NCBI GenBank assembly: GCA_005787685.1
Contig: SYAC01000001.1
Coordinates: 1 to 64,000 of the forward strand
Origin: Planctomycetia bacterium
GTDB taxonomy: Bacteria > Planctomycetota > Phycisphaerae > Phycisphaerales > SM1A02
DNA: 64,000 bases
Reading direction: 5' to 3'
Under the pieces are notes generated by a model. That model did not search any database. It was not told where the DNA came from and worked only from the letters and a program-made list of their open reading frames with translations. Below are positions 142 to 18,381 of the stretch, piece by piece (position 1 is the stretch's first letter; the number at the start of each line of letters is the position of its first letter). Position numbers and translations under genes: made by a program.

Positions 142-194
142 TTTCGAAAAGTTTCGCATTGAATTTCATTGGTTCAATGCGATTTACTTGATCT

Positions 195-428
195 CATTCG
201 ATATTTGGGAAAAAATCGAAGGGGTTTACAAGGGGGGTCATGGTATTGGGAAACACCATGAGTTAGAAGTTCGATCTGTGGCGGTATTTAAGGGAAACCG
301 CCCCATGACAAGATGCTTGCGCGGGAACGCAGCATCTTGAATCGAACACAATTGCGGACCGCGGAGGGCATGGTTCGCACAGCACTAGGGACGAGTCTTT
401 GAAAAGAGACTCGTCCCCTTTTTATTTT
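195..428 (+). ncRNA. Structured RNA candidate 1 with repeated GGGA hairpin loops (CsrB/RsmZ-like)
   Basis: No convincing coding frame exists here. Consecutive hairpins can be drawn: 197-202/215-220 (loop with TTTGGGAA), 239-244/255-260 (loop ATTGGGAAAC), 280-285/297-302 (loop with AAGGGAA), 309-317/331-339 extended by 319-321/328-330 (loop CGGGAA), and 343-347/373-377 enclosing a GGA. A strong intrinsic terminator (388-428) ends the unit. Each loop presents GGGA or GGA. Such arrays are known from CsrB, RsmY and RsmZ RNAs, which sequester the translational repressor CsrA. The segment lies downstream of a PEP-CTERM gene on the same strand, so it could be a separate small RNA or that gene's 3' untranslated region. 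No clear promoter was found. The strand is set by the terminator T-run. Function is inferred from architecture only. Confidence 0.55.
388..428 (+). terminator. Intrinsic terminator of RNA candidate 1
   Basis: An 11-bp perfect stem (388-398 pairing with 407-417, GGGACGAGTCT and its complement) with an 8-base loop is followed at once by a T-rich run (419-428). This is a canonical Rho-independent terminator for the + strand. It also ends any read-through from the PEP-CTERM gene upstream and faces the convergent prpC gene. Confidence 0.85.
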
Positions 429-17184: not shown

Positions 17185-17225
17185 GCAATAAATCCTTTCA
17201 ATAACAGTCGATAAATGTGAATTTG

Positions 17226-17254
17226 AGTATAGCCATGTGTGTTTTGCTAGTCGA
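17226..17254 (-). promoter_or_regulatory. Probable sdhCAB promoter
   Basis: On the - strand a TATACT box (17231-17226) is preceded by TCGACT (17254-17249) with a 17-bp spacer. The predicted transcript start lies about 35 nt before the sdhC GTG. The -10 box is strong and the -35 box matches only four of six consensus bases. Confidence 0.5.
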
Positions 17255-17406: not shown

Positions 17407-17440
17407 AAAAAAAACGAGTCACCCAATTACGGGCGACTCG
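17407..17440 (-). terminator. Intrinsic terminator of RNA candidate 3
   Basis: The stem CGAGTC/GACTCG (17415-17420 with 17435-17440), with inner CCC/GGG pairs, is followed on the - strand by eight T residues (17414-17407). It lies between the RNA candidate and the sdh promoter and insulates the two. Confidence 0.85.
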
Positions 17441-17620
17441 ACTTTGGGTTAACTTGTTTAATTCGATTTTTCAACCGTGCTCAAACATATGTTCCCAATC
17501 TGGCGGGCTTGTCTGGTGCATATTCCCAACTGCTCCGACATGGCCTTCCAGCACTACATTTTGTCAGATGCGCTTCCCAACGCTCCGAACAAGATTTCTA
17601 CATGCACTTACGCGGTACAT
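17407..17620 (-). ncRNA. Structured RNA candidate 3 with three TTGGGAA hairpin loops
   Basis: On the - strand the exact heptamer TTGGGAA occurs three times within 90 nt (17580-17574, 17529-17523, 17498-17492). The first two lie in clear hairpin loops: a bulged stem of about 10 bp spanning 17591-17562, and a stem spanning 17539-17511. The third is in a weaker hairpin (about 17506-17475). An intrinsic terminator (17440-17407) ends the unit. No coding frame is credible. The segment lies downstream of a PEP-CTERM gene on the same strand. That gene carries the same heptamer at its ribosome-binding site. The layout matches RNA candidates 1 and 2 and suggests a CsrB/RsmZ-like sponge. The promoter and exact 5' end are unknown. 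Confidence 0.55.
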
Positions 17621-17767: not shown

Positions 17768-18381
17768 TCAAATACGCCTACGGCGACTGGCTGCAATCCC
17801 CGCCAAATCGATCAACGCCACTGACCCTGGCGCAGGAACCGTAAATAAACCTGAAATCTGGCCATCACCCACACCTTCTACATTTTGGTGTCCCACTGTC
17901 AAGCGCCCTTGTTGACTGGCTGGGGTTGTGTTGAAGGCGGAGTAATCAAGGGCCTCACCTAAGGTCATATACGTGCCAAAAGCTTTTTTAGTGGTGTACT
18001 TCAACTCAAAATTGTAAGCGTGGGAATGATGCTTCCAGTTGAGATGCCGCTATTTCCAAGTTCAACACTAAATATTTTGCCATTGGCAATGTTGGTGAAG
18101 GAACCACCTTCTGTCTCGTTGCTGGACTTTGTCCAATTTGTTCCATCAGTCCCTGTGACAGTAAGCGTCCAATTACCAAATTTGCCATTCAGGCTGGTCT
18201 GGTTCAGATCACCATCAAAGCTGAATTGAATTGTCCAAACAGTTGGAGTCTGTAGGTACACGCCAATTCCTGCGATGTTTGAGGCGGTCAAGGTCATGGC
18301 TCCAAATGCGCTTGATGCTACGAGAATGGTTGCAACTACTGAACTGATTTTGAATGCCGATGATTTCATTTCTTTTCCCAA
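17768..18381 (-). pseudogene. PEP-CTERM secreted protein interrupted by a frameshift
   Basis: Two overlapping frames join into one protein of about 200 residues. The first (ATG at 18369) has a signal peptide (ILVASSAFG) and a beta-rich domain (VWTIQFSFDG, WTLTVTGTDG) ending ...SIIPTLT, then hits a TGA at 18001-18003. Reading continues in the second frame as NFELKYTTKKAFGTYMTL and ends with a full PEP-CTERM tail (VPAPGSVALIDLAGIAASRRRRI). One missing base near 18010-18020 (an A in an ACAATTTT context) would restore a single frame, so this is either a recent mutation or a sequence error. The ribosome site is unusual: TTGGGAAAAGAA directly precedes the ATG, carrying the same heptamer as RNA candidates 1 and 3. 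The first TTG of that heptamer is also an in-frame alternative start. Confidence 0.75.

Follow-up and report, generated by a model that had tools for sequence, protein, structure and literature searches.

In this work we have analysed the first 64,000 nucleotides of contig SYAC01000001.1 from a planctomycete (the window, below, means this whole stretch), and we find that the spacer lying downstream of a frame-broken PEP-CTERM gene and upstream of sdhC very probably encodes a real, terminator-bounded and previously undescribed small RNA, here called RNA3. Judged from its homologues, RNA3 is a conserved noncoding element with a terminator, independent of the flanking genes, and the reading of it as an independent, terminated - strand RNA that is tied to PEP-CTERM genes is well supported.

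Anatomy and conservation of RNA3

The features of RNA3 and its surroundings are collected in Table 1. An earlier note on this DNA had reported three identical heptamers on the - strand within 90 nt, at least two of them in hairpin loops, followed by a hairpin with eight T residues, all of it downstream of a frameshifted PEP-CTERM gene with the same heptamer at its ribosome site. Each of these observations was borne out. Exact TTGGGAA occurs on the - strand at 17492-17498, 17523-17529 and 17574-17580, that is, three times within 89 nt; an 11-bp stem with eight T residues follows; and a further exact copy lies at 18375-18381, just 5' of the PEP-CTERM start codon (ATG), where it could be a matter of chance. 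In the predicted fold the heptamers at 17523-17529 and 17574-17580 form hairpin loops, whereas that at 17492-17498 sits in a stem, paired with CCCAA at 17443-17447, which agrees with the wording "at least two in loops"; it would be a mistake to place all three there. Over the whole window the heptamer shows no enrichment (13 occurrences against 9.8 expected); three occurrences within 160 nt of RNA3 were seen in none of 2000 mononucleotide and none of 300 dinucleotide shuffles of the stretch. There is no plausible protein gene within the spacer.

Table 1. Location of RNA3, its parts, its neighbours and related genes; positions refer to the window unless a prefix names another record
Feature	Position	Strand	Remarks
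RNA3, small RNA of ~190 nt	17407..17602	-	homologues in six other species; 3' end is the T run; 5' end approximate
RNA3 conserved core	17442-17590	-	covariance model 112.8 bits, E 1.3e-25
Hairpin 1, GCGTTGGGAAGCGC	17570..17583	-	loop GGGA; identical in all aligned copies
Hairpin 2	17500..17551	-	irregular long stem (CTGG..CCAG, GC/GC, TGTCGG/CC.GACA); GGGAA loop cap at 17523-17529
Hairpin 3	17444..17497	-	base includes the third TTGGGAA (pairs with CCCAA); apical loop GAAA
Intrinsic terminator, CGAGTCGCCC GTAATT GGGTGACTCG + T8	17407..17440	-	11-bp stem 17440-17415
Neighbouring PEP-CTERM gene	17768..18381	-	frame break near 18003; TTGGGAA at ribosome site 18375-18381
Promoter-like site of the sdh operon	17226..17254	-	sdhC starts at 17187; conserved in the genus
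Sister RNA	170-425	+	terminated array of four to five GGA-capped hairpins; follows directly on a PEP-CTERM gene (1-141)
CsrA1	G000:C18:7699-7854		82.8 bits
CsrA2	G000:C23:104021-104188		diverged second paralogue, kept across the order
FliW	G000:C18:7268-7621		adjoins CsrA1
RNA candidate of ~110 nt	L085:9754; L096:1259; L097:615; L100:1780; L101:166	+	
RNA candidate of ~110 nt	L089:2510; L092:2405	-	

When 61 genomes were searched at the DNA level, RNA3 homologues came up in G002, G005, G008, G011, G013 and G015, which are six further species of the freshwater Phycisphaerales genus to which the window belongs, with a best E of 8e-30, a core identity of 75-79% and up to four strong matches per genome. 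The homology spans RNA3 through the terminator, while the flanks cannot be aligned to the window and the genomic sites are unrelated. With the covariance model, members were found in 7 of the 16 genus genomes (up to five matches per genome, some of which are pieces of one copy), and a wider search again gave 7 of 181 genomes, all of one genus, so that RNA3 was absent from the other genera of the family; a weak match in another family of the order had an E of 0.37. In G006 a contig end holds the promoter together with the opening bases of RNA3. Copies of RNA3 with its promoter at different sites of one genome are roughly 90-99% alike, and many of them lie at contig ends, as is expected of near-identical repeats. 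The named records of the relatives are lake metagenome assemblies, one of them labelled Phycisphaerales, Lake Baikal; the other isolate names we take to be those of lakes as well. No Rfam family reached its gathering score for RNA3, and nothing relevant appeared up to an E of 10. A phage or plasmid origin was rejected for want of any match. An apparent match in G038 lies inside a coding frame, and matches of 18-19 nt to the 5' end of RNA3 fall, in other genomes, within a conserved locus that appears to be coding; we treated both as chance.

Full-length copies measure 201-202 nt from a conserved ATGG to the T run, and all of them keep the terminator with its T8. The aligned copies give GCGTT GGGA AGCGC as the consensus of hairpin 1, and hairpin 3 has a GTTTGA/TCAAAC stem whose apical loop is CGGGAAC in the relatives and GAAA in the window. 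The fold is much stronger than that of shuffled sequences (z = -4.1 in the window, -3.3 to -4.1 across the copies), and 97.7% of the structure cells in the alignment are paired. Two pairs show changes on both sides, against a shuffle mean of 0.3, which is modest support because the alignment consists of essentially two lineages. The earlier note had made its proposal depend on finding the three heptamers in close relatives, and at this point the heptamer claim fails: exact TTGGGAA is kept in hairpin 1 only, one position of the three. What the comparison does uphold is the GGGA core, which nearly every copy has at each of the three window positions. In one variant copy, L023, hairpin 1 is swapped for a different stem, GTCATCAGTGGCGGGAACCACAGATGAC, and GGGAA is still in the loop.

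PEP-CTERM genes and a shared promoter block

All RNA3 copies with readable flanks adjoin a PEP-CTERM gene or its remnant. At L009, L011, L012, L015 and L018 the RNA lies upstream of the PEP-CTERM gene in the same direction, and at L017, and probably at L014, the gene beside it is truncated. The neighbour in the window carries a PEP-CTERM sorting signal, with a C-terminal P-x-P-G, a hydrophobic stretch and RRRR, and its segment 17771-17839 reaches TIGR02595 together with its frame neighbours; the PEP-CTERM proteins of the relatives end in VPAPGAAALIGLAGLVAGRRRRN and score just under the cut-off. The frame break near 18003 may mean that the gene is truly a pseudogene, or may come from an error of assembly. 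PEP-CTERM genes were also seen upstream of sdhC in G008 and G011, and not in G003, G005, G006 and G014 (L098, L171, L178), which suggests repeated gain and loss of PEP-CTERM genes at this spot.

In the relatives, RNA3 is preceded by a promoter-like block of 33 nt, made of a GTGA-N6-TCAC dyad and TTTTTTACGTTTACAT, which appears to resemble a CRP/FNR-type dyad with a promoter. The pattern occurs 2-11 times per genome in eight genomes, and its reversed control not at all. It precedes RNA3 copies, PEP-CTERM genes and an RNA candidate of ~110 nt, but is absent before the RNA3 of the window. The ~110-nt candidate, a third RNA, is found in most of the block-bearing genomes and has a CCCCCTTTTT loop and a CCCCGACG...CGTCGGGG terminator. 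Many of the PEP-CTERM leaders behind the block contain tandem hairpins, and those of the relatives hold 22 GGA-containing hairpin loops (shuffle mean 8.1, maximum 14), a count in which related leaders are not independent. The tandem hairpins carry UGGGAA, UGCGAA, UGAGAA, CAAGAA or UUCGAA hexaloops (L085, L086, L088, L098, L102, L104 and others). Several leader loops are without GGA, having GCGA, GAGA, AAGA or TCGA, and the kept feature may therefore be a GNRA-like shape rather than GGA. Searched for exactly, the leader hairpin GCRGTGGGAACYGC matched 15 times in 9 of the 16 genomes and its reversed control 8 times; by itself it is therefore not specific to the regulon. The reading offered in the earlier note is upheld in part. 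Its suggestion that target and titrator share a motif gains unexpected support from the relatives, where GGA-loop leaders stand under the same promoter block; the exact heptamer is not conserved.

GGA loops, CsrA and a sister RNA

GGA-bearing hairpin loops number three of three in the RNA3 of G005 and three of five in that of G013, each matched by only 1 of 300 shuffles. The RNA3 of the window has two of three, with 14 of 300 shuffles as good, and is weaker in this respect than its relatives, whose fourth GGGA loop is GAAA here. Total GGA in RNA3 is not significantly enriched (p 0.06-0.16), and ANGGA, absent from the window RNA3 and found once in the relatives, is not enriched either. GGA is described as the critical triplet of CsrA binding and ANGGAX as the best, high-affinity loop (PMC10729762, PMC4005645, PMC7652899). 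CsrA is encoded in 60 of the 61 genomes searched, and the CsrA1 of the window genome keeps the C-terminal HRKE segment with its RNA-contacting Arg. FliW adjoins CsrA1, and the 16 genus genomes yielded no flagellin (PF00669).

A second RNA of the window, the sister RNA, has a hairpin array more regular than that of RNA3. It occurs once per genome in 10 of the 16 genus genomes, two others giving weaker matches, and its alignment holds 11 pairs with two-sided changes (covariation). Its GGA loops exceed those of shuffles in the window, G015, G005 and G013, and not clearly in G002, G014 and G007. It is a better candidate for a CsrA sponge than RNA3, and its GGA-hairpin array raises the likelihood that GGA binding is a theme of the genus, though not a constant one.

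Discussion

What might RNA3 do? Our preferred reading, though we hold it only tentatively, is that RNA3 serves as a GGA-hairpin decoy for CsrA or some other RNA-binding protein. The stand-alone, intrinsically terminated RNA would then act through its (U/C)GGGAA-loop hairpins, which would bind and titrate the protein, most likely a CsrA paralogue, and this titration would relieve or tune the mRNAs of PEP-CTERM surface proteins whose leaders carry like hairpins. The transcription of RNA3, its binding of a protein, the identity of that protein and the effect on PEP-CTERM mRNAs are all steps that we infer. CsrA as the partner is plausible but unproven: the excess of GGA in the loops of RNA3 and of the leaders, in genomes that encode CsrA, fits a CsrA decoy, whereas the lack of ANGGA, the GAAA loop, the leader loops free of GGA and the presence of FliW count against it. 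For the CsrA titration proposed in the earlier note, it is the presence of CsrA that speaks in its favour, and the missing ANGGA, the insignificant total of GGA, the GAAA loop and FliW that speak against it.

Could RNA3 instead be conserved as a trans-acting small RNA whose mRNA targets are controlled through base pairing, with GGGA or GNRA loops that are simply stable caps? We think this rather unlikely. RNA3 does have long conserved segments, for example TGCACCAGACAAGCC, and its loops, like those of the leaders, are mostly GNRA-like (GGGA, GCGA, GAGA, GAAA) and not strictly GGA; however, most of the conserved segments pair with each other in the fold, and a simple duplex test found no excess complementarity to ribosome sites for nine nearby candidate targets, including PEP-CTERM genes and sdhC (ranks 2 to 96 of 100). 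It is a distinctly weaker prospect that RNA3 is a passenger with little regulatory role in an expanding cassette of promoter, small RNA and PEP-CTERM gene, duplicated and homogenised within genomes. The near identity of copies within a genome, which break the assemblies at contig ends and occupy different sites, would be explained in this way, as would the PEP-CTERM gene or remnant beside every copy with readable flanks. The diverged, single-copy RNA3 of the window nevertheless keeps its structure, terminator and loops, and has its PEP-CTERM gene on the opposite flank.

Since a terminator precedes a same-strand gene here, RNA3 might act in cis, as leader or attenuator of what follows it (sdhC in the window), but this explanation is largely refuted and very improbable. 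The sdh operon has a separate conserved promoter-like site of its own downstream of the RNA3 terminator, for which reason an sdh leader or riboswitch was rejected; no RNA3 was present in those sdhC upstream regions of relatives that were read; and in the relatives RNA3 is followed by a PEP-CTERM gene that has a promoter block to itself. It is hardly credible, lastly, that RNA3 is a small protein gene. A frame of 42 aa (MDSELKRWEARQQ...) opens at the conserved ATGG in the relatives and is open in most copies, but there is a stop in one G005 copy, and L023 and the window copy carry frameshifts (-4, -1, -1) that leave the hairpins intact.

If RNA3 is the decoy proposed above, how does it compare with known antagonists of CsrA? 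It shares with CsrB/CsrC and RsmX/Y/Z of the Gammaproteobacteria a stand-alone, intrinsically terminated form, GGA in loops and a CsrA-encoding genome, and plausibly works like a Csr sponge even though it is not filed as one. It differs from them in having no Rfam match, few sites (6 GGA, 2-3 in loops) and (U/C)GGGAA loops instead of ANGGAX, and in being a multicopy RNA tied to PEP-CTERM genes in FliW-bearing Planctomycetota. CsrA-titrating RNAs of the CsrB/C type have been described in Gammaproteobacteria, and an anti-correlation between them and FliW, the protein antagonist, has been reported (PMC4894983). Few GGA sites are also a trait of McaS of E. coli, which with four of them binds two CsrA (PMC10729762), but RNA3 has no sequence relation to McaS and no base-pairing target was found for it. 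In Campylobacter jejuni, which has FliW, the flaA leader titrates CsrA via GGA motifs (PMC4894983); the setting of RNA3 is alike in the GGA-bearing leaders of its putative targets and in its FliW genome, whereas RNA3 is a separate terminated RNA and the leaders here belong to PEP-CTERM and not flagellin genes. Dedicated transcriptional control of PEP-CTERM genes is known from floc-forming bacteria, where they depend on RpoN (PMC9850573). The block described here, with its GTGA-N6-TCAC dyad and TTTTTTACGTTTACAT, is unlike a sigma-54 site and includes small RNAs among the genes that it precedes.

A wider scheme can be drawn around the decoy, which as a whole we regard as unlikely: one promoter module would drive both the PEP-CTERM mRNAs with GGA-loop leaders and multicopy decoys with the same hairpins, a CsrA paralogue would be titrated in a FliW-bearing genome, and the copy number of the decoy would grow with that of its targets. 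If true, this would be an RNA antagonist of CsrA in Planctomycetota, placed within a dedicated surface-protein regulon of lake Phycisphaerales. Even without CsrA, RNA3 would represent a multicopy RNA family, undescribed in Rfam, that accompanies PEP-CTERM genes and shares one promoter block with them. A GGA-hairpin RNA tied to PEP-CTERM genes in a FliW-bearing planctomycete would offer the phylum a testable case of RNA control over secreted surface proteins.
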